Origin: Prevotella sp.
GTDB lineage: Bacteria > Bacteroidota > Bacteroidia > Bacteroidales > Bacteroidaceae
Direction: 5' to 3'
NCBI GenBank assembly: GCA_017623335.1
Contig: JAGAPI010000084.1
Span: 1-14,445, forward strand
Length of the DNA: 14,445 bases
The notes below the pieces were generated by a model. That model was not told where the DNA came from. It made no database searches and was given only the letters and a program-made list of their open reading frames with translations. Shown here one piece after another: positions 1 through 14,445 of this stretch. How positions within the stretch are numbered: the stretch's first letter is position 1; each line of letters begins with the position of its first letter. A program made the translations under genes and the position numbers.

Positions 1-1152
1 GACACCACTTCCCTGAAGCAGATTCTCAACACCTGGTATCACGGCAACGACGTCAAGCCGATGCAGAAGATGACAAAGTTTAGCTCATGTAATCCCGCTG
101 CGGCTCTTGAGGCATATAAGTTGTGGGGCGATCAGGAATGGCTGTTGGGTATGATGCCTTCGTTTGATGATGAGTATGCACGTTGGAAAGGCAGCAATCG
201 CCTGCCTAATGGACTATACTGGCAGGGTGACGTGCAGGATGGTATGGAGGAAAGTATCAGTGGTGGCAGAAAGAAAAAGTATGCCCGTCCTACCATAAAC
301 AGTTATATGTATGGCAATGCCCGTGCGTTGGCTGCAATGCACACAATGGCAGGAGAGACTGACAAGGCAAAGACATACGATGGCGAGGCAGAGACTCTGA
401 AATATCTTGTAGAGACAAAGCTTTGGAACGATAAGCATGAGTTCTTCGAGACTATGCGTGGTGATACTCTCGCTCAGGTGCGTGAGGCTATTGGATACAT
501 TCCATGGTATTTCAACATGACCACCGACAAGAAGTTTGACAAGGCTTGGCTGCAGATAACCGACGAGAAGGGATTCTCGGCTCCTTATGGACTGACCACA
601 GCCGAGCGCCGTCACCCGCTGTTCCGCAGTCATGGTTTTGGCAAATGCGAGTGGGACGGTGCAATCTGGCCGTTTGCGTCGAGTCAGACTCTGACAGCCT
701 TGGCAAACTATCTCAACGACCCTACAAAGAAAGACTCCCAGGTGGTTAGTGACTCTGTGTTCTTCCGCCAGATGAAACTCTATGTGGAGAGCCAGCATCA
801 CCGCGGACGTCCTTATATCGGCGAGTATCTTGACGAGGTTACAGGCTATTGGCTTATGGGCGACCGTGAGCGCAGCCGTTACTATAACCACTCCACATTC
901 AATGACCTCATGATTACCGGCATCTGCGGTTTCCGTCCACAGGCTGACGGCAGCATCCGCGTGAATCCTCTCATCCCCGAGGGCACTTGGGATTACTGGT
1001 GTCTCGACGGCATCAACTATCATGGTCACACCATTACCATTGTCTATGACAAGACCGGAAATCACTACAACCTCGGCAAGGGACTGATTGTTTTGAAAGA
1101 TGGGGTTAAAATGAAGAGTGAAGACTGCGAAGCTGATGAGCTTGCGAACTAA
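1..1152 (+). CDS. GH63/MGH1-like (alpha/alpha)6-barrel glycoside hydrolase, 5'-truncated by the window
   Basis: The reading frame is open from base 1, so the protein starts upstream; ATG 61 is internal. The visible part is 383 codons plus stop. Clan GH-G signatures are present. A GDVQDGMEES segment at bases 220-249 resembles the GM(D/E)(D/N)S region that carries the catalytic Asp (here the Asp codon at 238-240). Next comes a CEWDGAIWPF segment like the W(R/D)GxIWP motif of GH63/trehalase-type enzymes. Further on is GEYLDEVTGYW, a plausible site for the catalytic Glu. The C-terminus (DGSIRVNPLIPEG) is a small beta domain common in Bacteroidota glycosidases. It should cleave an alpha-linked glycoside in the periplasm or at the surface; the substrate cannot be read from sequence. 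The last 15 codons look like read-through into an intergenic repeat (see findings). The GH140-like gene follows after 86 bp with no promoter or terminator seen, so the two are probably co-transcribed. Confidence 0.75.
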   Translation, partial: DTTSLKQILNTWYHGNDVKPMQKMTKFSSCNPAAALEAYKLWGDQEWLLGMMPSFDDEYARWKGSNRLPNGLYWQGDVQDGMEESISGGRKKKYARPTINSYMYGNARALAAMHTMAGETDKAKTYDGEAETLKYLVETKLWNDKHEFFETMRGDTLAQVREAIGYIPWYFNMTTDKKFDKAWLQITDEKGFSAPYGLTTAERRHPLFRSHGFGKCEWDGAIWPFASSQTLTALANYLNDPTKKDSQVVSDSVFFRQMKLYVESQHHRGRPYIGEYLDEVTGYWLMGDRERSRYYNHSTFNDLMITGICGFRPQADGSIRVNPLIPEGTWDYWCLDGINYHGHTITIVYDKTGNHYNLGKGLIVLKDGVKMKSEDCEADELAN

Positions 1153-1238
1153 TGAAGAATGAAGAATCTTCGTGCAGGCTATTAGCCCAATAAGCCCTAT
1201 TAGCCCAATAAACAAAGAATAATAAAAAATTTAACAAT
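1153..1238. repeat. Short intergenic direct repeats between the two glycosidase genes
   Basis: Two repeat types sit in this gap. A purine-rich run repeats AATGAAG (1151-1157 and 1158-1164). After it, CTATTAGCCCAATAA occurs twice, at 1179-1193 and 1197-1211, with an 18-bp period. No promoter motif or rho-independent terminator was seen. Similar GAAGAATGAAGAA and TTAGCCCAATAA runs are, from memory, common intergenic repeats in Prevotella/Bacteroides genomes; only a genome comparison could confirm that. Confidence 0.7.
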
Positions 1239-2678
1239 ATGAAACTAAGAACAATTACAGCAGCTACTCTAATGCTGCTCATGGCAGGCACAATGACGGC
1301 TGCCAAAAAACAAATCTACAAGCCTTGGAGCAACGGTGCTCTGAAGGTGAGCGACAACCAGCGCTATATCGTTCACGAAAAAGGCAACGTGCCTTTCTTC
1401 TGGATGGGCAACACAGCGTGGCTGCTGCCTGAGCGCCTCAACCGCGACGAGGTGGAGTTCTATCTTGCAAAGGAACGTGAGGCTGGATATAACGTGGAGC
1501 AGATTCAGGTGCTCAACGGAATACCTACATTCAATATCTACGGTCATGCTGCCAACAATGCTGAATTCGATTTCTCAAAGGTGTCGAAGCCAGGTGTGTA
1601 TGGCTACTGGGAGCATCTTGACTATATAGTTAATGTTGCTGAGCGCAACGGCATCTATATTGCCATGGACTGCATTTGGGGCTCGCAGCTTAAAGCCATG
1701 GACGAGAAAAAGGCGGCTGCGCTTGGCAAGTTCCTCGGCGAGAGATATAAGGACAAGCCTAATATCATCTGGATGATTGGCGGTGACATACGCGGTGACA
1801 AGAAGCCGGAAGTGTGGGATGCCTTGGCATGTGCAATAAAGAAAGTGGACAAAGGGCACATCATGACTTTCCATCCAAGAGGACGCACCACCTCTGCATG
1901 GTGGTTCAACGACCGCGAGTGGATGGATTTCAATATGTTCCAGAGCGGACACCGCCGCTATGGACAGCGCAACGGTGACGGAGACTACACCATAAAGGAC
2001 AATACAGAGGAGGACAACTGGACCTACGTTGACATGAGTTTTGAGAAGTCGCCCATACGTCCTGTAATCGACGGTGAGCCTTCTTACGAGGACATACCTC
2101 AGGGACTTCACGACTTCGACGCTCCACGCTGGCAGGACTACGATGTGCGCCGCTATGCTTATTGGGCTGTGTTTGCAGGCTGTTTTGGTCACACTTATGG
2201 TCACAACTCCATAATGCAGTTTATGCGTCCAGGTCTGCTTGGCTCGTTTGGTGCAGAGAAACCATGGTGGGAGGCTATGAAGGATCCCGGCTACGGGCAG
2301 ATGAAATATCTTAAGTATCTCATGCTTAACTTCCCATTTACTGACCGCATTGCCGACCAGAGCATCATTGCCGGCAAGAACGGTGAGCGCTACGACCGCA
2401 TGATTGCCACCCGCGGCAACGACTACCTGCTGGTATATAACTACAGCGGCAAGCCTATGGACATCGACCTCACCAAGATTTCGGGTGCGAAGAAAAACGT
2501 GTGGTGGATGAATCCTTCCGACGGCACACTCACCTATCTTGGCGAGATGGACAGTAAGGTGACCACCTTCTCAGTTGACGGTGCCTATATGCGTGGCGGC
2601 GACCGTGTGCTCATAGCCGTTGATGCCTCGAAGAATTATCTTGACAAGAATGCAACAATGATTCCCGAGAAGGACTGA
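1239..2678 (+). CDS. GH140-like (DUF4038) glycoside hydrolase with C-terminal putative collagen-binding domain
   Basis: This 479-residue secreted enzyme has a signal peptide at residues 1-22 ending in TMTAA. The DUF4038 (beta/alpha)8 domain spans about residues 28-380, with FFWMGNTAWLLPERL near its start, IIWMIGGDIRGD around 177-187 and PVIDGEPSYED around 275-285. Asp183 and Glu280 are 97 residues apart. I recall the same spacing for the catalytic pair (Asp187/Glu284) of the GH140 apiosidase BT1012, and the surrounding motifs fit. A beta domain at about 390-470 matches the putative collagen-binding domain that usually follows DUF4038. GH140 removes apiose from rhamnogalacturonan II, but DUF4038 is broad and the true substrate may differ. 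It lies 86 bp after the GH63-like gene, so a shared polysaccharide-degrading operon is likely. No SusC/SusD pair is in view. ATG 1239 is chosen because it gives the complete signal peptide. Confidence 0.85.
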   Translation: MKLRTITAATLMLLMAGTMTAAKKQIYKPWSNGALKVSDNQRYIVHEKGNVPFFWMGNTAWLLPERLNRDEVEFYLAKEREAGYNVEQIQVLNGIPTFNIYGHAANNAEFDFSKVSKPGVYGYWEHLDYIVNVAERNGIYIAMDCIWGSQLKAMDEKKAAALGKFLGERYKDKPNIIWMIGGDIRGDKKPEVWDALACAIKKVDKGHIMTFHPRGRTTSAWWFNDREWMDFNMFQSGHRRYGQRNGDGDYTIKDNTEEDNWTYVDMSFEKSPIRPVIDGEPSYEDIPQGLHDFDAPRWQDYDVRRYAYWAVFAGCFGHTYGHNSIMQFMRPGLLGSFGAEKPWWEAMKDPGYGQMKYLKYLMLNFPFTDRIADQSIIAGKNGERYDRMIATRGNDYLLVYNYSGKPMDIDLTKISGAKKNVWWMNPSDGTLTYLGEMDSKVTTFSVDGAYMRGGDRVLIAVDASKNYLDKNATMIPEKD

Positions 2679-2759
2679 CGGCACCACTTACAAACGGCAT
2701 AACTACGCTACGGTACATAAAAGAAACATCGCAATAAAGCAAAATAAACATAACAAACA

Positions 2760-3443
2760 ATGAAAATAGGAATAATCATTGCAATGGAAAAGGAATTTGA
2801 GCAGGTGAAAGGCTTGCTCAAAACACCAAAGTCACTGACTTTCGAAAACCGGCACTTCGTTTACGGAACGATGGGATTGAACACCGTGATACTGATGCAA
2901 AGCGGCATTGGCAAGGTGAACGCCGCCGTGAGCACATGGCAGATGATTGAGAAGTTCTGTCCCGACATGATAATATCAACAGGCGTGGCGGGAGGAGCTT
3001 CCACAACACTGGAGATACAGGATGTGGTGGTGTCGACAGAGACGTGTTACCACGATGTGTACTGCGGCCCGGAGGCCATGTTCGGGCAGGTGATGGGTAT
3101 GCCCGAAAGATTCAAAAGCGCCGAAGACATAGTGGAAAAAGCAGCAAGCCTCAACTGCGGCACAACAATACACAAAGGGCTGATTGTGACTGGCGACTGG
3201 TTTGTGGACACCGTGGACAAGATGCGTGAGATAGCCAGTCATTTTCCCGAAGCCATGGCTGTTGACATGGAGTCGGCGGCAATTGCTCACGTGTGCTGTC
3301 AGAGAGACATACCGTTTGTGTCGTTCCGCATAATAAGCGACATTCCGCTAAAAGAAGGCAACGCACAACAGTACACAGACTTCTGGAGCAGCATGGCCGA
3401 AAAGTCGTTCAATGCCACAAAGGCGCTGCTTAATGCACTTTGA
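2760..3443 (+). CDS. mtnN: 5'-methylthioadenosine/S-adenosylhomocysteine nucleosidase (MTAN)
   Basis: This cytoplasmic enzyme cleaves adenine from methylthioadenosine and S-adenosylhomocysteine, giving methylthioribose and S-ribosylhomocysteine. At 227 residues it has the usual MTAN length. All family landmarks are present: the N-terminal MKIGIIIAMEKE with Glu12 (the E. coli Glu12 position), SGIGKVNAA, STGVAGG, the GDWFVD substrate loop, AVDMESAAIAHVC with the ribose-binding Glu, and FRIISD with the catalytic Asp near the C-terminus. The N-terminus matches the family start, so ATG 2760 is secure. The luxS gene follows 77 bp later and uses the S-ribosylhomocysteine made here. No TAnnTTTG promoter or terminator was found in the 81-bp gap upstream. 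Confidence 0.95.
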   Translation: MKIGIIIAMEKEFEQVKGLLKTPKSLTFENRHFVYGTMGLNTVILMQSGIGKVNAAVSTWQMIEKFCPDMIISTGVAGGASTTLEIQDVVVSTETCYHDVYCGPEAMFGQVMGMPERFKSAEDIVEKAASLNCGTTIHKGLIVTGDWFVDTVDKMREIASHFPEAMAVDMESAAIAHVCCQRDIPFVSFRIISDIPLKEGNAQQYTDFWSSMAEKSFNATKALLNAL

Positions 3444-3520
3444 TTCAGTGTGGAGTGAGGAGTGTGAAGTGAGAAGTTTTTTATATGTATTATAAATTTT
3501 ATAATTAAAAAACAAACAGC
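3444..3520. other. mtnN-luxS gap with purine-rich repeat and AT-rich palindrome
   Basis: After the mtnN stop there is a GTGAGGAGTGTGAAGTGAGAAG-like run of short GAG/GTG/GAAG units at about 3450-3476, similar in style to the repeats at 1151-1168. A perfect 17-nt palindrome follows at 3489-3505 (arms ATTATAAA and TTTATAAT around a central T), 15 nt before the luxS start. No strong terminator or TAnnTTTG promoter is visible, so mtnN-luxS co-transcription remains the simplest reading. Confidence 0.5.
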
Positions 3521-4000
3521 ATGAAGAAAATTGCAAGTTTCACAATAGACCACAACCGCCTGAGCCGCGGTATATTCGTATCAAGAAAAGACCATGCAGG
3601 CAACGAGGTCATAACAACCTTCGACATACGCATGAAAGAGCCCAACCGCGAACCGGCAATGCAGCAGGCGGCTCTGCACACCATAGAGCATCTTGCCGCC
3701 ACATACCTGCGTAATGATGCCGAGTGGGCAGACCGCATAATCTATTGGGGGCCCATGGGATGCCAGACGGGCAATTACCTTGTGATGCGCGGCGATCTGA
3801 GAAGCGAGGACATAGCCAACCTGATACTGCGAACATTCAGGTTCATAGCCGACTATGAGGGAGAAATTCCAGGAGCTGCACCGAAAGACTGCGGCAACTG
3901 GCTGCTCCACGACCTGCCCATGGCACAATGGGAATCGAAAAAATATGTGGACGAGGTGCTGTCGTGCATGAAACCGGAAAACCTCAGCTACCCAGAATAA
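3521..4000 (+). CDS. luxS: S-ribosylhomocysteine lyase (AI-2 synthesis)
   Basis: LuxS converts S-ribosylhomocysteine to homocysteine and DPD, the precursor of the quorum signal AI-2. The 159-residue length is normal for this dimeric cytoplasmic metalloenzyme. The metal-binding HTIEH motif places His53, the catalytic Glu56 and His57. The third ligand is Cys124 in the CGNW segment. The catalytic Cys81 is in GPMGCQTG. The N-terminal KIASFTIDHNRL...G is typical and supports ATG 3521. All active-site residues are intact, so the enzyme should work. It sits directly after mtnN, completing the two-step recycling of S-adenosylhomocysteine. Whether the host uses AI-2 as a signal or only recycles homocysteine cannot be told from this window, which shows no AI-2 receptor. 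Confidence 0.97.
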   Translation: MKKIASFTIDHNRLSRGIFVSRKDHAGNEVITTFDIRMKEPNREPAMQQAALHTIEHLAATYLRNDAEWADRIIYWGPMGCQTGNYLVMRGDLRSEDIANLILRTFRFIADYEGEIPGAAPKDCGNWLLHDLPMAQWESKKYVDEVLSCMKPENLSYPE

Positions 4001-4209
4001 CGAAGTTACGCAATAGCATGTATCATGCTTGCAAATCAGGCTATTTTTGTAAAAAAGACGTATATTTGTGATAAAAATCAATAAAAGACACAAGTCTTAG
4101 CGTTTTAAAAGAGCAAAAAGTAACTGAAATAACAAAAAAGCAGTAACTTTGCCCCGTCAAATAACGACATACGAAAAAAGAATTACTAACATTTAAAAAG
4201 AGAAATTCT
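4001..4209. other. AT-rich gap between luxS and the outer-membrane protein gene
   Basis: This 209-bp stretch has no convincing ORF. A small inverted repeat (AGCATG-TAT-CATGCT, 4015-4029) lies just after luxS but has no U-run, so it is a weak terminator candidate at best. TAnnTTTG-like hexamers occur at 4042-4049 and 4061-4068 without a -33 box at the usual distance. The best promoter is at 4144-4151. Confidence 0.5.
4144..4151 (+). promoter_or_regulatory. Bacteroidota -7 element TAACTTTG upstream of the small beta-barrel gene
   Basis: TAACTTTG matches the TAnnTTTG -7 consensus of the Bacteroidota primary sigma factor. No TTG or TTTG is found 19-21 bp upstream, so the -33 half is weak. Transcription would begin near 4157 and leave a leader of about 50 nt before ATG 4210. 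Confidence 0.6.
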
Positions 4210-4767
4210 ATGAAAAAGTTTATCGCAACATTCGTGATCGTTCTCGCCGCAATCGGCGCCAGTGCACAAACCTACCTCGGCGGTGGCTTCAGCTTCAGCT
4301 CCACAGATGTGTCCGGTGAGGACAAGTCAATCACTCAGATTACCCTTGCTCCGGAGATTGGATATAATCTCGACAACAAATGGGCAATAGGCTTAGGTGT
4401 AGGCTACACATACGCCAAACAGGAGTCGAGCTACAATATCATTTCTGTGGCACCATACGTGCGCTATACCGTGGCAAAGGCAGGCATAGTAAGCTTCTTC
4501 ATCGACGGTGAGTTCCAGTTTGCCTCTGCAAAACCGGAAGAAGGCGACTCATCCACAGGCTGGAGCCTTGGTTTGAAGCCCGGCGTGCGTTTCGACATCA
4601 CAAAGAAAATTTTCGCCACAGCCTCAGTCGGCTTCCTCGGATATCAGGACACAGCCGACTTCAACGGTGAGAAGACCTTCGGTTTCGGATTCAGCGGAAA
4701 CGGAATGAACTATTTCGGCAGCGACAACGGAACTGGTCTCAAGCTTGGTCTGTACTATAACTTCTAA
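4210..4767 (+). CDS. Small outer-membrane beta-barrel protein
   Basis: This is a 185-residue protein with a clear Sec signal peptide (MKKFIATFVIVLAAIGASA, cleavage before Gln20). The mature part is made of alternating amphipathic strands rich in Gly, aromatic and Ser/Thr residues (IGYNLDNKWAIGLGVGYTY, VAPYVRYTV, SLGLKPGVRFDI). It ends in an aromatic strand (LKLGLYYNF) with a C-terminal Phe, the usual Bam-recognition signal. That fits the OmpA-like/OmpX-like 8-stranded 'outer membrane beta-barrel' family. The role is unknown; such proteins may be structural, adhesive or small channels. It is monocistronic, with its own -7 element and a strong terminator, and is not obviously related to luxS or the xylanase. 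Confidence 0.85.
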   Translation: MKKFIATFVIVLAAIGASAQTYLGGGFSFSSTDVSGEDKSITQITLAPEIGYNLDNKWAIGLGVGYTYAKQESSYNIISVAPYVRYTVAKAGIVSFFIDGEFQFASAKPEEGDSSTGWSLGLKPGVRFDITKKIFATASVGFLGYQDTADFNGEKTFGFGFSGNGMNYFGSDNGTGLKLGLYYNF

Positions 4768-4790
4768 GCCCCGTGACCTAATTTCATAAC

Positions 4791-4840
4791 ATAATGGGAA
4801 GGCTTTTCTGTTGAAAGAAAAAGCCTTCCCATTATTTTTC
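4791..4840 (+). terminator. Strong rho-independent terminator after the beta-barrel gene
   Basis: A perfect 17-bp inverted repeat has arms 4791-4807 and 4819-4835 (core GGGAAGGCTTTT / AAAAGCCTTCCC) with an 11-nt loop. It is followed by a T-run at 4835-4839. It starts 23 bp after the stop codon and isolates this gene from the xylanase. Confidence 0.92.
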
Positions 4841-4885
4841 ACGGCATAGATGAAGCATCAAAAAACAGCAATAATTCATGTTTTT

Positions 4886-4917
4886 CTTGCAAGATTGGGA
4901 AAAAAGTACTAAATTTG
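4886..4917 (+). promoter_or_regulatory. Promoter of the GH10 xylanase gene
   Basis: CTTG at 4886-4889 and TAAATTTG at 4910-4917 are separated by exactly 20 bp, matching the Bacteroidota -33/-7 architecture. The predicted start of transcription is near 4923, giving an unusually long leader of about 115 nt. Confidence 0.8.
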
Positions 4918-4945
4918 CACACCAAAACAAATACATAGAACACAA

Positions 4946-5014
4946 CCGCCAAGCTGGCGGATATATAAAATTACCAATCTGATTAATACAAAATACAAAA
5001 ATAACAATCTGATT
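4946..5014 (+). promoter_or_regulatory. Structured 5' leader of the xylanase mRNA: hairpin plus direct repeats
   Basis: A perfect 6-bp GC-rich hairpin (CCGCCA-AGC-TGGCGG, 4946-4960) is followed by the direct repeat CAATCTGATT at 4975-4984 and 5005-5014, spaced by exactly 30 bp. All of it lies downstream of the predicted promoter and upstream of the start codon. The elements could stabilise the 5' end or bind a regulator; this is inferred from structure only. Confidence 0.5.
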
Positions 5015-5039
5015 TTAATGAATTATAACAGTTTAAAGA

Positions 5040-8000
5040 ATGAAAAAAATCTGTAGTCTCGTAGCCGCAACCATCATGGTTGCAGGAGCACATGCCGCAC
5101 CTTTGACGGTATGCGATTTTGAAGATTATCCAGTAGGCACAACATGGACGTTATGGAGCAGCGACGGCAATGCCGTCACATCAACAGCCACGGTGGAAAC
5201 CGACCCGGCCAACGCCGACAACAAGGTGTTGCACATTAAACTGGAAGAATGGGGATGCCACCCTGAGTTTAAAATCCCGACGGAACTGCGCGGAAAGGCA
5301 CTGACCGACCGCTATCCGATTGTGACATGCGATATTTACCGCAGCGGCAATGACAATGCCGATGCCTATAAACAATTTGCCGTGTTCATAGGCTCGCAGG
5401 AGGTTTACCGTGATGAGAGCTATCCGCATCAGGGTAACATAAAGGTGTGGCAACACAGGAAATACACCATGAAACCTGCCGGCGCGGACAACACCGAAGG
5501 AGTGATAAGACTTGGACTGCACCACAACAACACCGACTATTACATCGACAACATCTGTCTGGCAGGAGAATATGACGACTATCTGACAACGGAAGACGGC
5601 GGAATACTCGACTACTGCACTGCCAACACGTCAAGCTCATACCGCAACATCAGTGACAATATATTCATTCCGGCAGGCACAACAACCAATGTGCGTACAT
5701 CGCGATACACGGAATGGACAGGAAAGGTGGCCGGAGACGGCACACTCAACATCTATTCCGGAGGCGAGCGGTCGTATATAGGCACCGCGAAGAGCAAAGG
5801 AGCAACATGGCCCGACTGGAGCACAATGAGAGGCACGGTCAGCATCTATCCGTATAAGGAAGTGGCGGCAAACTGCGGCTTCTACGGTCTGGTTATGAGC
5901 AGCGGCACGTTCCAGCCCGACAATCTCGAAGCCTCACGCTGCAACGAGGTTTTCAAAAACAGCAAAGTAGTGCTGCACGACGGAGCTACAATAGCCATAG
6001 AATCGGGCACGCGCGGCATAAGATTCGGTGAGCTGAACACCATGGCGGGCAGCACACTCGACGGATATTATAAGAAAGGTACGGCAAACTCCTACTACAT
6101 CGTAGGAGGCACCGGCACCGACGGCATTCTGGCAGGAAAAATCCTTGCCTCCAGCTCGGGCAACAGCGTGGGACTGATAAAGGAGGGAGCCGGCACATAC
6201 ACAATCACCGGCAACGAAAATAACATAAACGCCGGAATACGCCTGCTCGGCGGAACACTGCTCATAAACAATGACGCAGAGGCGGCAGAGACTGGCGGCA
6301 AAAGTGGCGCGACAGGCAACGGCGGAACACTGTTTGTATTCAACGGCACCACTCTCGGCGGCAACGGTAGCATAGGCGCACAAACAGAAGTGTACGGAAC
6401 GATAATCCCCGGAATGGCAAACGCAGGGACACTAACCTTTGCCGACTACACGACATCAGCTGGCGTTAACGTCACTCTGCACCCTGAGGCCAACATAATA
6501 TGCCGGGTGAAAAATGCAAAGGAATATGCCCGCCTTGACATAAAGGGAATGATGGCCTACAACAACAAGACTCAGGAATTTGAAGAATCCGAGAAAACTC
6601 CACGGCTGACTATCGCCCTCACCGATGACGCCGCCTTGCAGGTGAACGATGAGATAACACTGCTTACAACAAACAAGAAAGACGGCAACGGATGGAGCTT
6701 CAGAATACGTTATCCCAAAGCCTACACATGGGTGGTGGAGCAACGGGAAGGCGCAGATGGAGAATACAGCATCGTTGCCAAGGTGACATCGCTCGACTAC
6801 AACGGCCAGGGAGACGTGAGCGACGACGATGATGATGCCCCGGGAAACAAGGGTGAATATCCCGATGACGACTGGACAGCAGACATTAACGATGACACAC
6901 CGCTGCGCACATACTCGGCACGCCTGAAAAAGAACATAGGAGTGGCTGTGGCAAGCTATCGCTACGACTGTAGCCGCGATGACGGCGAGACCGGACTGGT
7001 GGGACGTGAGTTTGACCTGCTGGTGGGAGAAAATGAAATGAAGTTTGACGCCACGGAGCCATCTAAGGGCTCGTTCAACTATGGAGGCGCCGACGCAGTG
7101 ATGTGGGTTGCCGACAGATACAAGCAGGAGGTGCGCGGCCACACTCTGGCATGGCACTCTCAGGTACCCGCATGGGTAAGCCAGGACGGCAAGAAAAACA
7201 ATCACAACTACACCCGACAGGAGCTACTCGACATACTTAAGAACCATATTTTCAACGTAGTGGGAAAATACAAGGGACGCATACGTGAATGGGATGTGTG
7301 CAACGAAGTGCTTGACGATGACCAAAGCATAGTGCGCACCAATCCCGACGCATATAAGCTGCGCCCATCTATATGGTCTACCTACATTGGCGAGGAGTTT
7401 ATTGACTCAGCCTTCGTATGGGCTCACCAGGCAGACCCTGAGGCACGGCTGTTCATAAACGAATACGGCGCGGAGTTCATGGGCGACACAAAGACAGAGG
7501 CTTACTATAATCTGATAAAACGGCTGAAAGCCGACAAACGCCCGATTGACGGATGCGGACTGCAGTGTCATCTGACCACAGGACAGCTCGACACCCTGAA
7601 GCTGGAAAAGAACATACGCCGCTATGCGGAGATGGACATGGACTGCATCATCACCGAGCTCGACATTGCGCTTGCCAATCCATACGCCGACAATGCTCTC
7701 GACATTCAAGCAAAGGAATACGGTGCCATCACACGTGTGTTCCTGCGCAACGACAACTGTCCGTCGATGCTTCTGTGGGGAATTTCCGACAACCATTCAT
7801 GGCGTCACAACAATCCACTGCTCTTCGACAGCAGTCTGAAGCCAAAGCCAGCCTACTACAACGTGCATGCCCAGTTGCGACTTGCCGCCGAGAAGGCACA
7901 GGCCGACGGCATCGTTGCTCCAGAACAGTCGGGCAACGACGCAAAAATAATATCCACCTCACGGCATGACATCTACGGACGCTGCGTAAGCACAGCCAAA

Positions 8001-8069
8001 GGTATTGTCATCGAGAAGAACATATACTCCGACGGAAGCGTGAAGGTGATTAAGAAGATTTGCAAATAA
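5040..8069 (+). CDS. Secreted multidomain GH10 endo-1,4-beta-xylanase with autotransporter-type beta repeats
   Basis: This 1009-residue xylanase has a signal peptide at 1-19 (cleavage AHA|AP). Residues ~22-185 form a jelly-roll CBM-like domain ending in YYIDNICLAG. Residues ~190-460 are Gly/Thr/Asn-rich beta repeats, including a passenger-associated repeat (KEGAGTYTITGN...GIRLLGGTLLIN, ~381-410) and GTIIPG; a further beta domain runs to ~585. An Asp-rich linker spans ~590-619. The GH10 catalytic barrel is ~620-945: GHTLAWHSQVPAWV, the acid/base Glu756 in WDVCNEV, FINEYG, the nucleophile Glu873 in ITELDIAL, and WGISDNHSWR. The last ~35 residues (DIYGRCV...KGIVIEK...SDGSVKVIKK) resemble degenerate Por/T9SS-like sorting tails common in this group. 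It should hydrolyse internal xylan bonds outside the cell. No SusC/D genes flank it. It has its own promoter and terminator. GH10 is certain; the CBM call is tentative. Confidence 0.95.
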   Translation: MKKICSLVAATIMVAGAHAAPLTVCDFEDYPVGTTWTLWSSDGNAVTSTATVETDPANADNKVLHIKLEEWGCHPEFKIPTELRGKALTDRYPIVTCDIYRSGNDNADAYKQFAVFIGSQEVYRDESYPHQGNIKVWQHRKYTMKPAGADNTEGVIRLGLHHNNTDYYIDNICLAGEYDDYLTTEDGGILDYCTANTSSSYRNISDNIFIPAGTTTNVRTSRYTEWTGKVAGDGTLNIYSGGERSYIGTAKSKGATWPDWSTMRGTVSIYPYKEVAANCGFYGLVMSSGTFQPDNLEASRCNEVFKNSKVVLHDGATIAIESGTRGIRFGELNTMAGSTLDGYYKKGTANSYYIVGGTGTDGILAGKILASSSGNSVGLIKEGAGTYTITGNENNINAGIRLLGGTLLINNDAEAAETGGKSGATGNGGTLFVFNGTTLGGNGSIGAQTEVYGTIIPGMANAGTLTFADYTTSAGVNVTLHPEANIICRVKNAKEYARLDIKGMMAYNNKTQEFEESEKTPRLTIALTDDAALQVNDEITLLTTNKKDGNGWSFRIRYPKAYTWVVEQREGADGEYSIVAKVTSLDYNGQGDVSDDDDDAPGNKGEYPDDDWTADINDDTPLRTYSARLKKNIGVAVASYRYDCSRDDGETGLVGREFDLLVGENEMKFDATEPSKGSFNYGGADAVMWVADRYKQEVRGHTLAWHSQVPAWVSQDGKKNNHNYTRQELLDILKNHIFNVVGKYKGRIREWDVCNEVLDDDQSIVRTNPDAYKLRPSIWSTYIGEEFIDSAFVWAHQADPEARLFINEYGAEFMGDTKTEAYYNLIKRLKADKRPIDGCGLQCHLTTGQLDTLKLEKNIRRYAEMDMDCIITELDIALANPYADNALDIQAKEYGAITRVFLRNDNCPSMLLWGISDNHSWRHNNPLLFDSSLKPKPAYYNVHAQLRLAAEKAQADGIVAPEQSGNDAKIISTSRHDIYGRCVSTAKGIVIEKNIYSDGSVKVIKKICK

Positions 8070-8228: not shown

Positions 8229-9380
8229 TTAAAATTTAGGCAGGCTGTTGTCACTCCGTTCTTTCACAGCCATGCACTCCATCTCTATGAGCCATCCTGA
8301 GCGGCACACGGGAGCATGAACAATAACGTAGGGCTTGTGGGGAAAGCGTTCTGCAAAGATGCGGCTCACCACAGCATAATCGGAACTGTCACGCAGATAC
8401 ACCGATATCTGGCAAATGTCATCCATGGTGCATTCTGCCTCAGCCAGCAGCGCCTCCACGTTCTCCATCATGCGTTCAGCCTGTCTCACTATGTCGCCTG
8501 GACAAACCACCTGTCCCTTGTTGTCTATGCTCGCCGTACCCGAGATGAACACGTGGCGGCGGTCGGCATAGTCAACCATTGTACCACGCTCGAAACTCAC
8601 CCCGTAGTCACTCGTGCGGTTAAGATGCGTGGGGGCATAAAGATAGCGTATCTGCTCTGGACGTATGCCGGCAATGGCATAGCTGTCCATCTGCGAGAGC
8701 ACGTTAGGGTCAGCCTGACGGCCGCCAATGCCCGTGCTGGCAATAAAGTGTGTCTGGTTGGTGAGTCCCTGGGTGAAAAACACCTGATTGCGCGCCCTCA
8801 CCACTCCACCGTAGTTCAAGTCCACATCATTCACAAAGAACCATGTACGTATGCAGTTGTCCTTCAAAGTGCATCCCTCCTGTTTCAGCTGCATCACATA
8901 CTCATTGAAGAGCAGGCGTGTCTGATACTCGCTGTTGACGGCAAGGTTGTGCGCTCCCCCGCCCCACAGGTGGGTGAAATCTCCGTGGCTCACGGCGTGC
9001 AGTCCGTTGCCGTGGCAGCTCACGCTACGCATGCCTGTCATGAGATATGCCCACAACGAAACCTTAGTGCCGTCGAGCGGAGGCTGCTCAATCACGGAGA
9101 TGGCGCAGTCGCAGCCCTCAGGCTCCATGGCGTATATGCCGTCGGCCTGGTTGGCGGCATCGCTCAGATAGTAACGCTTAAACACGGCGGCAAATCCATG
9201 CAGGCTGTCTGTGAGCAGCTGCACAAAAGCATTGTCCACCGCCTGCAGCTGGCTGCGGTAAGACATGGTTGCATCGGTTACATGAATCTGAACATGGGCC
9301 TCACTCACCTCTGTGCCGTTGCTGAACGTAAAAACCTCGGCAGTGACACTGCCATAATTGTATTTAGTGAATTTATTCAT
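8229..9380 (-). CDS. Two-domain Rid (YjgF/YER057c/UK114) superfamily protein, chorismatase-like architecture
   Basis: This is a 383-residue cytoplasmic protein without a signal peptide. The C-terminal part (~265-372) is a typical Rid fold: HVFISGTASIDNKGQV, a helix with QAERMMENVEALLAEAECTMDDICQISVYLRD, and the last strand WLIEMECMAV. The N-terminal ~250 residues are longer than in RidA and hold GGGAHN and FFTQGLTNQTHFIASTGIGGR. A Rid-like domain after a long N-terminal domain recalls FkbO/Hyg5/XanB2 chorismatases, which hydrolyse chorismate, but the similarity is judged by eye. The PAR(S/T) segment that supplies the key Arg of RidA imine deaminases reads KPYVIV here, so classic RidA activity is unlikely. 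Arg360 and Glu366/Glu368 are left as polar candidates in the pocket. The gene stands alone, divergent from the porin operon. Substrate unknown. Confidence 0.7.
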   Translation of the reverse strand: MNKFTKYNYGSVTAEVFTFSNGTEVSEAHVQIHVTDATMSYRSQLQAVDNAFVQLLTDSLHGFAAVFKRYYLSDAANQADGIYAMEPEGCDCAISVIEQPPLDGTKVSLWAYLMTGMRSVSCHGNGLHAVSHGDFTHLWGGGAHNLAVNSEYQTRLLFNEYVMQLKQEGCTLKDNCIRTWFFVNDVDLNYGGVVRARNQVFFTQGLTNQTHFIASTGIGGRQADPNVLSQMDSYAIAGIRPEQIRYLYAPTHLNRTSDYGVSFERGTMVDYADRRHVFISGTASIDNKGQVVCPGDIVRQAERMMENVEALLAEAECTMDDICQISVYLRDSSDYAVVSRIFAERFPHKPYVIVHAPVCRSGWLIEMECMAVKERSDNSLPKF

Positions 9381-9475: not shown

Positions 9476-9540
9476 AATACCTAAAAATGAGGACACAACA
9501 ATAAACAGCAGATGTAAAAAATTACCAATTTTTAGGTATT
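9476..9540. promoter_or_regulatory. 13-bp perfect inverted repeat between divergent promoters (candidate operator)
   Basis: AATACCTAAAAAT at 9476-9488 is exactly repeated in inverted orientation as ATTTTTAGGTATT at 9528-9540, with 39 bp between the arms. The right arm overlaps the -33 box (TTG 9539-9541) of the porin operon promoter. The left arm lies upstream of the minus-strand promoter. A nested TACC-N8-GGTA (9523-9538) adds symmetry at the right arm. The placement suggests a repressor or activator site; the regulator is unknown. Confidence 0.5.
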
Positions 9541-9569
9541 GCAGGAAATTTCTAAAAGCCGTACCTTTG
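9539..9569 (+). promoter_or_regulatory. Promoter of the porin-imelysin-DHOR operon
   Basis: TTG (9539-9541), a 20-bp spacer and TACCTTTG (9562-9569) match the -33/-7 consensus with the same spacing as at 4886 and 14114. Transcription would begin near 9575, about 28 nt before ATG 9604. Confidence 0.8.
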
Positions 9570-9603: not shown

Positions 9604-10911
9604 ATGAACAGTATCAGATTAGGACTTATCGCCGGCGCATTGATGACCGGCATTGCAACAGCCGGCGCACAGCAGACGGCCGCCGACAGCGTGCTGCAAC
9701 AGCACGTCAGCGGGAAACGCCTCAGCATCGGCGGCTATGGAGAGGCGGCATATTCGCGCAACTTCTACAGCGACAACGGGAAGCGCTATTCCAACGCACC
9801 TGCCTACAAAAACGACCCGAGCCACGGGCGGTTCGACATTCCACATGCCGTGATTTACATTGGCTACGACTTCGGCAAGGGCTGGACCTTCGGCACGGAG
9901 ATAGAGTTTGAGCATGGCGGCATTGGCGGCGCAATAGAATATGAGGCGGAAGAGAGCATCGAGTATGAGAGCGAGACCGAGAAAGGCGGCGAGGTGGAGC
10001 TGGAGCAGTTCTGGATTCAAAAGTCGTTCGGAAAGGCTTTCAACATACGTGCCGGACATATTGTGGTGCCAGTAGGCTTGACCAATGCCCACCATGAGCC
10101 GCTCAACTTCTTCACCGTCTACCGTCCTGAAGGCGAAAATACCATACTGCCCTGCACGTGGCACCAGACGGGAGTGGCGCTGTGGGGACGCAGCGGCGAC
10201 TTCCGCTACGAAGCGCAACTTGTGGCGGGACTTAACGCTCTCAACTTCAGCCGCAGCAACTGGATTCAAGGCGGCACAAAAAGCCCTTACGAGTTTGAGG
10301 TGGCAAACAAATATGGTGTCAGCGCACGTGTGGACAACTATTCCATACCCGGCCTGCGCATAGGAGTGAGCGGCTACTACGGACAGTCGATGCACAACAC
10401 CACGCCACACGACATGGAGAAAGGAGACGCCAAGCGCGTGAAGGGCAACGTATACATAGGAGCACTGGACTTCACATACAACCAACATAACTGGCTGGTG
10501 CGCGGCAATGCCGACTATGGCTACGTGAGCGATGCACAGACCATCGCCTCCTACACCTATCCCGGCACCTCACTGGTGAAGCCCAACGAGAGCGGCAGCA
10601 ACAAATACTTCGGCAGCCACGCCATAGCCACCATGGTGGAAGCTGGCTACGATGTGTTCTCGCAGATTGAAAAGATGCGCCGCGACAGGCAGAAGCTCTA
10701 TGTGTTCGGACATTTTGAATACTACGACTCAAGCATCGGCAACACCACCTCGCAGTGGACCGGCAAGAAGATTCTCGCCGGCGGCATCAACTACCAGCCC
10801 ATGCCGCAAATATGTATCAAGGCTGAATACAACCACAGAATGCTCAAAAGCCAGTACAACAATGAGCCTGCCATAAACATCGGCGTGACCTACCAGGGAT
10901 TTTTCCTATAA
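9604..10911 (+). CDS. Outer-membrane porin-like beta-barrel protein, first gene of the imelysin operon
   Basis: This 435-residue protein has a signal peptide (cleavage after TAGA, before Gln23). The mature part is a series of amphipathic beta strands: LSIGGYGEAAYS, VIYIGYDFGKGWTFGTEIEFEH, FNIRAGHIVVPVG, GLRIGVSGYYGQS. It ends in a strand closing with GVTYQGFFL, as in outer-membrane barrels. It resembles Bacteroidota porins of the phosphate-selective porin O/P type, but the substrate is not evident. A Glu-rich segment at residues 112-134 contains 11 Glu in 23 positions and may form an acidic loop. It is followed after 52 bp by imelysin and then the di-heme lipoprotein, so it is probably the outer-membrane channel or anchor of that system. 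Nothing in the sequence fixes phosphate or iron as the ligand. Confidence 0.8.
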   Translation: MNSIRLGLIAGALMTGIATAGAQQTAADSVLQQHVSGKRLSIGGYGEAAYSRNFYSDNGKRYSNAPAYKNDPSHGRFDIPHAVIYIGYDFGKGWTFGTEIEFEHGGIGGAIEYEAEESIEYESETEKGGEVELEQFWIQKSFGKAFNIRAGHIVVPVGLTNAHHEPLNFFTVYRPEGENTILPCTWHQTGVALWGRSGDFRYEAQLVAGLNALNFSRSNWIQGGTKSPYEFEVANKYGVSARVDNYSIPGLRIGVSGYYGQSMHNTTPHDMEKGDAKRVKGNVYIGALDFTYNQHNWLVRGNADYGYVSDAQTIASYTYPGTSLVKPNESGSNKYFGSHAIATMVEAGYDVFSQIEKMRRDRQKLYVFGHFEYYDSSIGNTTSQWTGKKILAGGINYQPMPQICIKAEYNHRMLKSQYNNEPAINIGVTYQGFFL

Positions 10912-10963
10912 AACAACAGAAACGAAGAACATAGAAAAATTTATCATAAAATCAAAATTAAAA

Positions 10964-12262
10964 ATGAAGAAAACAGCAAAATTCATGGCAATGCTCCTGC
11001 TGGGAGTATGCACAACGGGAGTCTCATCGTGCTCGGACGACGACAATGACGAGACAACCGTCAATGCCGTCAGCAAAAGCCTGATGGAACAGACAGCACA
11101 AACCTACGTAGACGATGTGGTATACCCCACATACACCGCTCTGGCAAACAATGCCCAGACCCTCTACGAGGCATGCGCAAAACTCTATGCAAACGCCAAG
11201 GCCAACAGCATGACGCAGAGCGACATCAACGCCGCCTGCGAGGCGTTCAAGGACGCACGCATGGAATGGGAGCGCAGCGAGGCATTCCTCTATGGTGCCG
11301 CCACCGACAACGAGATTGACCCGCACATTGACTCATGGCCATTAGACCGCGACCAGTTAGTGGCCGCACTCAACAGCAACGCCATCATCAGCGGCATCAA
11401 CGGCTCCGCACCTGCAAAGTTCGTTTATGAGAACAACGGCAATTTCGACTCGGTGCTGGGCTTCCACGGACTGGAGTTCGTGCTTTTCCGCAACGGCAGC
11501 AACCGCACCGTGGCAGACTTTCAAGGCAACGAGAATGCCGAGGGCATGACCTCGGTGAAGGGCATCGACGAACTGGCTTTCGCGGCTGCCGTGGCAGAGG
11601 ATGTGCGCAACATGACAACCCTGCTGGAATACGGCTGGCTGGCAAACGGCATCTCATCACCGCACAACGGCATACTCACTGCCGCTCCATGGGTGGTGGA
11701 AGGCACACTGAACAAGGGACTCTCGCCACGCAACATGGGATACGGCGACTATCTGCTTGCAGCCACCACTGCAAACGGCTATTTCCAGACATGGCAGGAG
11801 ACCATGGAGAACATTCTCATTGGCGGCTGCTCAAACATCTGTCAGGAGGTTTACCAGCAGAAGCTGGGACAGGCATACCGCGTAGCCACCAACCAAGGCG
11901 GCGAGGACGAGTCAATCGACTATATCGAGTCGCCCTACAGCAAGCGCTCGTTCATAGACTATCAGGACAACATACACTCCATCAGGAACGTGCTCTACGG
12001 CACACGCAACATCAGCGCCAGCTCTCCCGCAGCCAACTCGCTCATGGCAATCATGCGCGACCACAATTATCCCGGCTACCCTGCATTGAGCAATGCCCTC
12101 AACACTGCCATCAGTGCATTGGAGAATGCAAAAAACAGCGGGATCGCCTTTGTTGACGACCCCAAGAACGCACAGGTGAAAACCTGCATCGACGCCGTTC
12201 AGGAGCTTGACAACCAGCTGAACGAGGCAGGCGCATGGTTCCGTCGTCTCTCCGTAAAATAA
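10964..12262 (+). CDS. Imelysin (peptidase M75-like) family lipoprotein
   Basis: The protein has 432 residues with a type II signal peptide; the lipobox GVSSC gives Cys23 as the lipidated residue, followed by an acidic run SDDDNDE. The mature protein is largely helical, as expected for the two-bundle imelysin fold. It carries the diagnostic GxHxxE motif as GFHGLE (Gly166, His168, Glu171), together with the conserved MEWERSEAFLYG (~100-111) and IDSWPLD (~122-128) segments. Despite the M75 label, family members are thought to be metal-binding and linked to iron uptake (IrpA, EfeO M75 domain), not proven proteases. No N-terminal EfeO cupredoxin domain is present. It lies 52 bp after the porin and 33 bp before the di-heme protein. 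The acidic stretch after the cysteine suggests export to the cell surface. Family call firm, function inferred. Confidence 0.92.
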   Translation: MKKTAKFMAMLLLGVCTTGVSSCSDDDNDETTVNAVSKSLMEQTAQTYVDDVVYPTYTALANNAQTLYEACAKLYANAKANSMTQSDINAACEAFKDARMEWERSEAFLYGAATDNEIDPHIDSWPLDRDQLVAALNSNAIISGINGSAPAKFVYENNGNFDSVLGFHGLEFVLFRNGSNRTVADFQGNENAEGMTSVKGIDELAFAAAVAEDVRNMTTLLEYGWLANGISSPHNGILTAAPWVVEGTLNKGLSPRNMGYGDYLLAATTANGYFQTWQETMENILIGGCSNICQEVYQQKLGQAYRVATNQGGEDESIDYIESPYSKRSFIDYQDNIHSIRNVLYGTRNISASSPAANSLMAIMRDHNYPGYPALSNALNTAISALENAKNSGIAFVDDPKNAQVKTCIDAVQELDNQLNEAGAWFRRLSVK

Positions 12263-12295
12263 ATACACCTTTTATTTTATTAGCAACAAAACATC

Positions 12296-14047
12296 ATGAA
12301 CAATAAAAAATATCTGTATGCCTCAGCCGCTCTGCTCGCTCTTTCGGTGACAGCCTGCTCTGACAATGACGATGCCGACGGCGGAGGCGCAGCGGTGGAG
12401 ACCGATGCGAAGTATATAGGACAGGCTGTGGGAAATTTCTCTGCCGAGGAATGGTACCCGGGCGGTGAACTTGGCACAACCGAGAACACTGTGTCGGGAT
12501 GCTACGAAGACCCGGCACCAGCCGTGGAGCAGCAGGGACTGACTGAGAACTTCTTCATCGGCGAGCAGCTTTTTGAGCGTCAGTACACCATCAACACAGG
12601 AGTGTTTAAGGGACTCGGTCCGGCATCAACACGCAAATCGTGTCTCGACTGCCACCCCGGCTACGGTCACGGCAAGCGCATGAACTCCTACACCACCAGC
12701 TACGGCAACGGCAATGGTTACCTGCTTGTAGTCTACCATCCCACGGCACCTGGAAGCAACGACGGAGCCTATATCTCGGAAGTGACAGGAATGCCGCAGA
12801 CACAAGCCACATCGCCGTTCCTGCCTCCTATAGAGGAGAGCCAAATCAACCTGCAGTGGAAGACCGTCACCGCCATGGAGAGCGGACTGCCCCTGCAATT
12901 CCCCGACGGAGAAAGGTATGAGTTGATTTATCCTGAGCTGGACATCCCCGTCTCAGCATTCAACACCGACCCCAAGCCATCCAATCTTGCATTCCGCCTG
13001 GAGTCAACCATAGGAATCATCGGTACGGGTATGATTGACGCCATACCCAACGAGGCAATAGCCGAGCAGTATACCGCTGAAGCCAAGAGTCTGAGAGAGG
13101 CAGGACTGGACGTGTCGGAATATCTCAACCCCAACTTCTGGGACGAGAGCGCCAAGGCGATGGCAGCCGGAGCCTACTACCCCGTATTTGGCAAGGACGG
13201 CGTCAGCGGCGGCACCCATGCCGACGGCTCGAAGTACAACGGCACAGGACTGATTAAGCGTTTCACCTACGCCCTTACACGAGGCTCGCTGCAGGACGGT
13301 CCCGGAGCCAACGCCATCTGGAACATCACCAACGTGAGCCGTGCCGACCGTCCGAAACTGTACTCCACCAAGGCGTGGGCAAAGGCTATGGCAAACAACG
13401 ACAATGTGATAAGTGCCATACAGGCCGACCCCACATCGCCTTACTATGCCGACGGCACAAAGGAGGGCATCAGCAATGCCGTGTCCATACTGCTCGACCC
13501 GTCGACAAACCAGTTTGACAACGGCGTTCACAACTTCACTCCCGACCAGAGCATGGACAACTATTATTCGTTCATGGTGTGGCACCGCGGTTTAGCCATT
13601 CCACGTGCCCGCAACCTGAACGACACCGACGTGCAGCGTGGCAAGCAGCTGTTTATGGAAATGGGCTGCGCCACCTGTCACCGTCCGAAGTGGCAGACCA
13701 CCAGCGACAACTACATCACTGCCGACATGATGGCTGGCAAGAAGTTGCCGCGCTATCAGAACCAGACCATCTATCCATACTCTGACTTCGTACAACACAA
13801 GCTCTACATGGTGAACGACATACACGGCTCATGGTGCCGCACCACACCGCTGTGGGGACGCGGACTGTCGAGCCTCAACACCGGTGCCGAGGACCGGCTA
13901 CACGACTGCCGCGCACGCAACGAGGTGGAGGCAATCATGTGGCATGCCTACAGCAAGAAGAGCCACGCATATAGTTCTGCACAGAAATTCTACAACCTGC
14001 CAAAAGCCGACCGCGACGCAGTTGTAAAGTTTCTGAGGTCAATATAA
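12296..14047 (+). CDS. Di-heme oxidoreductase (DUF1111/COG3488) lipoprotein
   Basis: A 583-residue lipoprotein: signal peptide with lipobox SVTAC, lipidated Cys21, then SDNDDAD. Two c-type heme sites are present: CLDCH (Cys116, Cys119, His120) and CATCH (Cys458, Cys461, His462). Conserved DUF1111 features include IIGTGMIDAIP (~240-250), the RFTYALTRGSLQDGPGANAIW region, and a C-terminal LHDCRARNEVEAIMWHAY...FLRSI that corresponds to the family's HDGRA...EAI.WHGG ending. Here the usual Gly is Cys538. This family is annotated as thiol oxidoreductase or di-heme peroxidase-like and is often next to imelysins in iron-related loci; the reaction is not established. Heme must be attached outside the cytoplasm by a cytochrome c maturation system, and a ResB/CcsBA gene lies just downstream. 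It is the last gene of the operon. Confidence 0.92.
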   Translation: MNNKKYLYASAALLALSVTACSDNDDADGGGAAVETDAKYIGQAVGNFSAEEWYPGGELGTTENTVSGCYEDPAPAVEQQGLTENFFIGEQLFERQYTINTGVFKGLGPASTRKSCLDCHPGYGHGKRMNSYTTSYGNGNGYLLVVYHPTAPGSNDGAYISEVTGMPQTQATSPFLPPIEESQINLQWKTVTAMESGLPLQFPDGERYELIYPELDIPVSAFNTDPKPSNLAFRLESTIGIIGTGMIDAIPNEAIAEQYTAEAKSLREAGLDVSEYLNPNFWDESAKAMAAGAYYPVFGKDGVSGGTHADGSKYNGTGLIKRFTYALTRGSLQDGPGANAIWNITNVSRADRPKLYSTKAWAKAMANNDNVISAIQADPTSPYYADGTKEGISNAVSILLDPSTNQFDNGVHNFTPDQSMDNYYSFMVWHRGLAIPRARNLNDTDVQRGKQLFMEMGCATCHRPKWQTTSDNYITADMMAGKKLPRYQNQTIYPYSDFVQHKLYMVNDIHGSWCRTTPLWGRGLSSLNTGAEDRLHDCRARNEVEAIMWHAYSKKSHAYSSAQKFYNLPKADRDAVVKFLRSI

Positions 14048-14066
14048 CCAACATACTATCCACCAG

Positions 14067-14102
14067 GTCGGGAGGCTTCACGACAAGTCTCCCGACGTTT
14101 TT
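14067..14102 (+). terminator. Rho-independent terminator of the porin-imelysin-DHOR operon
   Basis: Stem arms at 14067-14078 and 14085-14096 pair over 12 bp with one G-U wobble (core GTCGGGAG / CTCCCGAC) around a 6-nt loop. They are followed by GTTTTT (14097-14102). It begins 20 bp after the stop codon and separates the operon from the cytochrome maturation gene. Confidence 0.9.
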
Positions 14103-14113
14103 ACCGCAAAACC

Positions 14114-14144
14114 TTGCATATATTCAAAAAAAACTGTAACTTTG
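14114..14144 (+). promoter_or_regulatory. Promoter directly in front of the ResB/CcsBA-like gene (leaderless transcript)
   Basis: TTG (14114-14116), 20 bp, then TAACTTTG (14137-14144) is a full consensus promoter. The ATG at 14152 lies only 7 nt after the -7 box, so transcription should start at or within about 3 nt of the start codon. Confidence 0.8.
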
Positions 14145-14151
14145 CCGCATC

Positions 14152-14445
14152 ATGGTCAAAAAACTGATTTACACCTTATATATAATTATTGTGGTGAGCA
14201 TGGCAGCAGCCACAATCGTGGAACAAGAACACGGCACCGACTACGCCCATCAGGCTGTTTACGGCAGCTGGTGGTTTGTGGCTCTGTGGGCTGCGCTCAC
14301 TGCCGCCGGCATATTCCACATTCTGAGGCGCAAGGTGAGGAGCGTCCCCACACTGCTGCTCCACCTCTCGCTCGTGGTGATACTGGCAGGAGCCTTGCTC
14401 ACCCACATCACCTCCGTGAAAGGCATGATTCATCTGCGCACGGGC
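14152..14445 (+). CDS. Cytochrome c maturation protein, ResB/CcsBA-type (System II), 3'-truncated by the window
   Basis: From ATG 14152 the frame is open to the last base (98 codons). The N-terminus MVKKLIYTLYIIIVV forms a first transmembrane helix. After it come TIVEQEHGTDYAHQAVYGSWWFVALW, a second hydrophobic segment ending in ILRRK, and a third (LLLHLSLVVILAGALLTHIT) followed by GMIHLR. This order (helix, GT(D/E)xxHxxxYGSWWF, helix, HLS helix, IHLR) is what I recognise from Bacteroidota ResB/CcsB proteins, often fused to CcsA. These carry heme across the inner membrane and attach it to CxxCH motifs. The adjacent di-heme lipoprotein is an obvious client, as are other c-type cytochromes. Met17 is an alternative start but would cut the first helix in half. 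The rest of the gene is outside the window. Confidence 0.85.
   Translation, partial: MVKKLIYTLYIIIVVSMAAATIVEQEHGTDYAHQAVYGSWWFVALWAALTAAGIFHILRRKVRSVPTLLLHLSLVVILAGALLTHITSVKGMIHLRTG

Follow-up and report, generated by a model that had tools for sequence, protein, structure and literature searches.

What does a Prevotella cell gain from an operon that joins a porin to two lipoproteins, an imelysin (M75) and a di-haem c-type protein of the DHOR (DUF1111) family, the latter commonly annotated as a thiol oxidoreductase? Such an operon lies in a 14,445-nt stretch of Prevotella sp. DNA (contig JAGAPI010000084.1; the whole stretch is called the window here), where the original prediction, made from the sequence alone, had seen three tightly spaced genes followed by a ResB/CcsBA gene and had proposed an iron-linked outer-membrane assembly that binds and oxidises or reduces a metal or haem, with the porin as channel. 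The question bears on the role of imelysins, open since Xu et al. 2011 argued against a peptidase function, and on the reason for a starving cell to make its c-type haems on the exterior. Iron limitation is one condition met by gut Bacteroidota in inflammation, and for a similarly annotated Bacteroides thetaiotaomicron locus strong induction is on record under iron limitation as well as in colitis (PMC10434189), yet no function for it was found in the open-access literature. The evidence tips, if modestly, towards an iron-starvation-induced module for iron acquisition at the outer membrane, and its glutamate ladder, shared operator and partner proteins make the function of the locus directly testable.

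A conserved three-gene operon

The porin, imelysin and DHOR genes are consecutive on the plus strand, with gaps of 52 and 33 bp as read from the list of open reading frames (ORFs) of the window and from Pfam matches. They are flanked by a porin promoter, which we take to be of the Bacteroidota type, and by a terminator-like hairpin with a 12-bp stem, the longest among 12 such sites in the window (6.6 expected); the three genes form one operon (coordinates in Table 1). A scan of species genomes for DHOR yielded 47 further loci, mostly from records titled Prevotella or kin, with a few titled Bacteroidales, Bacteroidaceae or Bacteroides sp. The order porin–imelysin–DHOR was the same in 41/41 relatives with all three genes, including L033 with its split porin frame, so the gene order on which the original prediction had staked its reading was kept. 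The remaining 6/47 loci all lie at contig ends: five are cut there, and the sixth, L028, had no imelysin. Median gaps, window included, were 55 and 89 bp. In L028 (1–2069) and in genome G009 (Hallella mizrahii), porin pieces with stops stand directly before a DHOR lacking its N-terminus and no imelysin was matched; the operon there is decayed or misassembled.

Beyond these relatives, 295 genomes were sampled from the class to which Leyella stercorea (G004) belongs, with 4–5 candidates scored per genome, so that counts are lower bounds. DHOR was matched at E 1e-10 in at least 78/295, in only four of them at full length. Among the best 30 of 84 DHOR places fetched, imelysin adjoined DHOR in 29, and a wider stretch showed it in the last one. 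In the 20 places read widely, a porin match preceded the imelysin in 14, and in 10/14 a small protein stood between the two: a Rieske [2Fe-2S] protein, confirmed by Pfam in 3/3 tested, with C-x-H...C-x-x-H in 10/10 and a Tat-like start in nine. Five of the other six had imelysins on both sides of DHOR. The porin search of the same sample gave matches in at least 34 genomes, with the porin within 6 kb of DHOR in 19 of the 34 (DHOR first in three, G103, G032 and G187); for the remaining 15, either the porin was matched at another place or a DHOR match was missing from the list. The imelysin–DHOR pair, often with a porin, thus recurs class-wide. A second arrangement in the class, imelysin–DHOR–imelysin with the porin unmatched, is that of L085, L086, L091, L093 and L096; it is similar to PA4370–4373 as described in PMC3143127.

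An operator-bearing promoter and its regulon

An extended form of the promoter, RGTATTG-N-TAnnTTTG, was present in 38/41 porin upstream regions (window included) and in 0/43 ResB upstream regions. Its upstream part, TT-(A/C)(C/A)(C/T)-N-A-T-TTTT-RRGTATTG, is an imperfect palindrome with a strict right half, and the palindrome ATACYYA-N4-TRRGTAT was matched at 12 or more of 14 positions in 32/41 porin regions versus 0/43 controls. Mononucleotide shuffling gave an expectation of 0.115 promoters in the 41 regions, and 2% of shuffles reached 12/14; the operator consensus was derived from the same porin regions, and the genome-wide controls carry the weight. The window has two operator-like sites, the left half of the upstream one being one arm of a 13-bp inverted repeat (9476–9488 / 9528–9540), which the two sites therefore explain.

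Across 14 whole genomes (those of 14 of the 47 loci, chosen for named records), the extended promoter TTTNRRGTATTG-N18-22-TANNTTTGC occurred 53 times, against 0 occurrences of the reversed pattern and two when the upstream part was shuffled and the promoter core kept. The porin operon accounted for 12 of the 53. First frames after the other 41 sites encoded TonB-type receptors (10), flavodoxins (8), other outer-membrane proteins (2), DUF2023 proteins (2), TetR regulators (2), hemerythrin-LuxR regulators (2), CbiX-like chelatases (2), enolases (2) and one each of ZIP, HMA, LCM and calycin-like proteins; three had no family and four no usable ORF, two short frames (60 and 65 aa) being classed by the author as unusable. 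A flavodoxin (3 genomes) or hemerythrin regulator (2 genomes) was transcribed away from the same intergenic region. Because the sites precede genes for flavodoxin, TonB receptors, DUF2023 and hemerythrin regulators, the genes carrying the extended promoter are an iron-starvation regulon: genes of these kinds, and TetR genes, are iron-limitation-induced in Bacteroidota according to Lewis and Gui 2023 (PMC10434189). The same source gives BT2473-82 of B. theta (porin, thiol oxidoreductase, M75, CcsA) as 63- to 324-fold up in low iron in its tables (its text says 69-fold and above); in the colitis data that it lists, the rise is 14- to 33-fold. Operator, regulon and the induction of this like-annotated locus together bear out the link to iron that had been proposed.

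Porin, imelysin and di-haem protein

The porin had no Pfam match at E 0.01, PF07396 included, and PF07396 was annotated (precomputed) on 2 of 120 listed porin relatives; the nearest named relative among those listed was a Prevotella sp. protein at 99% identity. Searches of PDB sequences at E 1 returned nothing for porin or DHOR. The porin model matched the OprP barrel fold at 11–15% sequence identity, OprP ranking top only with a second aligner and general porins with Foldseek alone. In an alignment of the window porin with 39/42 others, 16 glutamates were invariant, 12 of them in residues 99–134, so that the invariant ladder is one of glutamate and not the arginine ladder by which OprP is recognised. 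One relative, the 571-aa protein P0041, carries PF00691, which suggests that fusions of a porin with an OmpA-like domain occur.

The imelysin matched PF09375 at 126.8 bits (cut-off 23.5). Its GxHxxE motif (GFHGLE, residue 166) lies mid-protein, and a permuted imelysin was rejected for the window. Nine residues corresponding to the pocket of PIBO, the Bacteroides ovatus relative (E106, D123, H168, E171, E295, K300, E322, D332 and N336), were invariant in the 40/45 imelysin rows aligned, five shortened frames having been omitted and residues matched to PIBO by hand; the Asp309 of the PIBO paper is Glu in that chain by the author's count. PF09375 occurred once in 13/14 related genomes and was absent from the fourteenth. 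In proteomes of Prevotella bryantii grown with acetate or valerate, an imelysin, perhaps but not necessarily from such an operon, increased together with proteins of iron import (PMC7709123). Directly after the lipidated cysteine an acidic run follows in the imelysin (CSDDD) and equally in the DHOR (CSDND), comparable with the surface-export consensus SDDDD in Bacteroides fragilis and CS(D/E)2 in B. theta (PMC5080379, PMC6222051); judged by these signals, both lipoproteins probably sit on the cell surface. With the predicted barrel, they bear out the outer-membrane assembly that had been proposed.

The DHOR matched PF06537 at 109.2 bits (cut-off 22) over residues 427–583, the last 157; Pfam gave DHOR and Cytochrom_C families and no DyP family. 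Its two CxxCH motifs (residues 116 and 458 of the window protein) were both present in 47/48 DHOR rows, the exception being L043, where a contig end cuts the frame (44/48 DHORs entered the alignment). Its structural neighbours were mostly bacterial cytochrome c peroxidases and MauG, rows within 1 Z being tied, and included 6e1c (title: MauG-like protein associated with copper homeostasis). Tandem DHOR genes occur in L005 (8100–11662) and L009 (10001–13625), the second copy being 51–55% identical to the window DHOR.

Haem attachment and iron transport elsewhere

The gene that follows the three is of ResB/CcsBA type, as the original prediction had it. Cut by the window end, it scored 19.6 bits for ResB, under the Pfam cut-off of 24.6; a ResB homologue lay 3′ of DHOR in 42/47 relatives, with an open frame of 672–813 aa in 38 of these 42. 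Since it has a promoter-like site of its own, the gene is treated as a neighbour, and a transcript shared with the operon is not inferred. NrfA was found in 6/14 related genomes, and a second Cytochrom_C_asm gene in exactly those six, where it lies by nrfA, plus G006. Seven of the eight NrfA-negative genomes had a single Cytochrom_C_asm gene, which adjoined DHOR in six of the seven and was on another contig in G003. With the sole CcsBA-type gene beside DHOR in 6/8 genomes lacking NrfA, DHOR may there be the main client of cytochrome c maturation. The work seems to be divided similarly in B. theta, where the nrf locus with its ccsA falls 30- to 36-fold in low iron and BT2475 CcsA rises about 104-fold (PMC10434189). 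It is not claimed that DHOR is the only c-type cytochrome: PF00034 matched only DHOR places in the 14 genomes, and is a weak probe that found DHORs in just four of them.

Inner-membrane transport had been predicted to be encoded elsewhere, and this held among the 14 related genomes: FTR1 (PF03239) was matched in 0/14, with control matches in 4/14 named genomes including Escherichia coli, and FeoB was present in 14/14. No gene for an FTR1-type permease was seen in the window.

Proposed mechanism and alternatives

In the iron acquisition module that we favour, scarcity of iron would lead a repressing regulator to free the operator-bearing promoter; the metal-binding imelysin and di-haem enzyme would then be placed, probably on the surface, beside an acidic OprP-like pore, and perhaps in a complex with it. 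The enzyme would change the oxidation state of iron, most likely from Fe(III) to Fe(II), the imelysin would hold the iron and the glutamate ladder of the porin would let it pass; FeoB would carry it across the inner membrane, and the neighbouring CcsBA would attach the haems. That a starving cell spends haem on DHOR suggests an enzyme that pays back iron, and for those members of the class that have the Rieske partner, a redox chain is suggested. A bolder version, possible but rather improbable in our estimate, is a TonB-independent, redox-driven importer in which the surface di-haem enzyme frees iron from ferric chelates and a glutamate-ladder mirror of OprP passes Fe2+ delivered by the imelysin, the Rieske protein wiring the same machine in other class members.

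Several observations weigh against iron acquisition of this kind. The transport and redox steps are conjectural, and neither a donor nor an acceptor of electrons can be recognised in the window. PIBO showed no specific binding of ferric ion or haem by thermofluor (PMC3143127). The glutamate hairpin has a pLDDT below 50 at residues 105–127, so that the ladder is placed in the lumen only tentatively, and Rieske-form porins keep the core acidic positions only. The exact promoter pattern misses the operon in 2/14 genomes (G003 and G007), and it also stands before genes with no obvious relation to iron, enolase and LCM among them. The induction data come from B. theta, whose likeness to the window is by annotation only, and the table in PMC10434189 lists the locus for B. 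theta only, not for Prevotella intermedia. No regulator for the operator was found; the B. theta gene called Fur was unresponsive to iron (PMC10434189), and Porphyromonas gingivalis Fur is reported as not binding the Fur box of E. coli (PMC6613475).

Other accounts start from the enzyme. DHOR could be a MauG/MbnH-like maturase that oxidises an imelysin side chain, for example the invariant tryptophan by the pocket, to build a metal site, leaving the imelysin as scavenger and the haems outside transport; this is unlikely, because the tied structural rows give no preference for MauG over peroxidases, the tryptophan also occurs in PIBO and 4ecg and may be structural, and EfeO-type imelysins have a different haem partner, a DyP enzyme (PMC3577903). 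The peroxidases among the structural neighbours, and like-annotated B. theta genes that are also up in the colitis data (PMC10434189), would instead fit an iron-starvation-induced surface peroxidase or electron sink that removes peroxide or another oxidant, with the imelysin as accessory and the porin as a general channel. We find this distinctly unlikely: the family to which its imelysin partner belongs speaks for iron, as do the regulon and the pairing across the class, and an iron-costly enzyme would be a poor choice for mere defence in iron famine.

It is quite unlikely, too, that the cargo is haem or another metal (copper, manganese or zinc), the haem variant of the original prediction being less likely than its metal form. 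EfeM, a related M75 protein, shows a preference for copper, iron and zinc (PMC9174327), and the HMA and ZIP genes carry the extended promoter, but flavodoxin, DUF2023, TonB-receptor, TetR and hemerythrin-regulator genes make up 24/41 of the other promoter sites, in B. theta the genes of like annotation are iron-responsive (PMC10434189), and the PIBO pocket is too small for haem unless its shape changes (PMC3143127). Least credible, and very unlikely, is an MtrCAB-like porin–cytochrome conduit for extracellular respiration. A porin and a surface-type c cytochrome do share one operon, joined in another form by a Rieske protein, but the operon's only cytochrome has two CxxCH motifs and no multihaem cytochrome accompanies it; induction by iron scarcity, as in B. 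theta, is the opposite of what a respiratory reductase would need, and the related genomes, with PF00034 matches confined to DHOR places and NrfA in 6/14, also speak against the conduit, though PF00034 is a weak probe here.

Features of the window and its surroundings

Table 1. Coordinates of the operon, its signals and the adjoining maturation gene (window positions).
Feature	Position	Strand	Remark
Upstream operator-like palindrome ATACCTAAAAATGAGGAC	9477..9494	.	12/14 consensus positions
Operator-like palindrome TTACCAATTTTTAGGTAT overlapping the -33 box	9522..9539	+	right half RGTATTG strict, left half looser
Promoter, presumed Bacteroidota type, TTG...TACCTTTG	9539..9569	+	
Porin, 435 aa, OprP/OprO-like barrel	9604..10911	+	
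Porin glutamate ladder, residues 99–134	9898..10005	+	12 of the porin's 16 invariant Glu
Imelysin (M75) lipoprotein, 432 aa, canonical, not permuted	10964..12262	+	Pfam and motif
Imelysin lipidation Cys and acidic run CSDDD, surface-export-like	11030..11044	+	
Imelysin GxHxxE motif, GFHGLE	11459..11476	+	
Di-haem c-type lipoprotein, DHOR family, 583 aa	12296..14047	+	Pfam and motifs
DHOR lipidation Cys and acidic run CSDND	12356..12370	+	
DHOR first haem motif CLDCH	12641..12655	+	
DHOR second haem motif CATCH	13667..13681	+	
Intrinsic terminator-like hairpin, 12-bp stem, T-rich tail	14067..14096	+	
Promoter-like site of the ResB/CcsBA gene, TTG...TAACTTTG	14114..14144	+	
ResB/CcsBA-type cytochrome c maturation gene, 5′ part	14152..14445	+	cut by the window end

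A conserved, structured 5′ leader stands between promoter and porin start in L033 (2231–2354), L031 (7113–7237), L045 (7189–7311), L009 (6965–7101) and L025 (7097–7223), four of which share the outer stem AAGUGCAG/CUGCACUU; the leader is absent from the window. In the window and six loci no Rfam family reached its gathering score, and with E relaxed to 1 the sole match was of L045 to a tRNA-like pseudoknot (17.9 of 80 bits), L009 giving nothing. A model built from the five recovers those five by construction and, scoring at most 150 candidates per genome, detected no other strong copy among 14 genomes and 41 sources. The idea that a riboswitch might reveal the ligand was rejected, the leader being confined to five loci, absent from the window and naming no ligand.

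Divergent from the porin lies a Rid/FkbO-like (chorismatase-like) gene (8229–9380, minus strand); the operator promoter was looked for at this gene and was absent. A gene of this kind stands on the same strand downstream of ResB in 16/47 relatives (L014, L019–L021, L024, L025, L028, L031–L035, L039 and L041–L043), some others ending before that place. Positions 1–8069 hold polysaccharide-degradation-like genes, among them MGH1-like and apiosidase-like glycosidases and a xylanase-like protein (5040–8069) scoring under its family cut-off; a PNP/UDP phosphorylase-family gene and LuxS (2760–4000) lie amid the glycosidase-like genes.

Comparison with known systems

Imelysin–DUF1111 clusters without EfeU have been in print since 2011 (PMC3143127), as has the iron induction of the B. 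theta locus (PMC10434189). A search of the open-access literature turned up no account that treats porin, imelysin and DHOR as one system, and none of the Rieske form, the operator or the glutamate ladder. Within the reach of that search, what is new is the operator, the Rieske form, the OprP-like barrel whose ladder of glutamates is invariant, and the presence of surface-export-like signals on each of the two lipoproteins; Figure 8 of PMC3143127 draws gene contexts, and the porin may be drawn there.

Kinship with EfeUOB, with which the original prediction compared the operon, stands in so far as an M75 protein accompanies a haem enzyme, as in EfeUOB and EfeUOB-M; it fails in that the operon has no FTR1 permease (EfeU), no EfeO cupredoxin domain and DHOR in place of DyP. 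The imelysin scored 17.2 bits for NCBIfam EfeO against a cut-off of 270, with M75 its sole Pfam family, and Pfam showed no DyP-type EfeB in the operon (DyP was not searched elsewhere in the genomes). The operon does not belong to the EfeUOB systems. PMC3577903 describes EfeB as a DyP enzyme, although in PMC3143127 it is equated with DUF1111.

The B. theta locus BT2473–BT2482 likewise combines porin, thiol oxidoreductase, peptidase M75 and CcsA in one low-iron-induced locus, but in number order it reads porin, thiol oxidoreductase, M75, and it has extra hypothetical, fimbrillin and HTH genes (PMC10434189); B. theta is also named among species with circularly permuted imelysins (PMC3143127), unlike the imelysin of the window. 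The outer-membrane clusters PA4370–PA4373 and VC1264-1266 lack EfeU (PMC3143127) and share with the window an imelysin beside DUF1111/DHOR, the absence of an FTR1 permease and, judged by the promoter type, iron regulation. The PA4370 type differs in its second imelysin-like protein, of GxxxxE type, the related genomes having a single PF09375 match or, in one case, none; the window type adds porin and CcsBA.

The MbnP/MbnH copper pair similarly couples a binding protein to a MauG-like di-haem enzyme, but in the window the binding partner is an imelysin and a porin is present. With the OprP/OprO phosphate porins the window porin has the barrel fold in common and differs in having no PF07396 at the threshold given above; where OprP carries an arginine ladder (title of 2o4v), the window porin carries an invariant ladder of glutamate.

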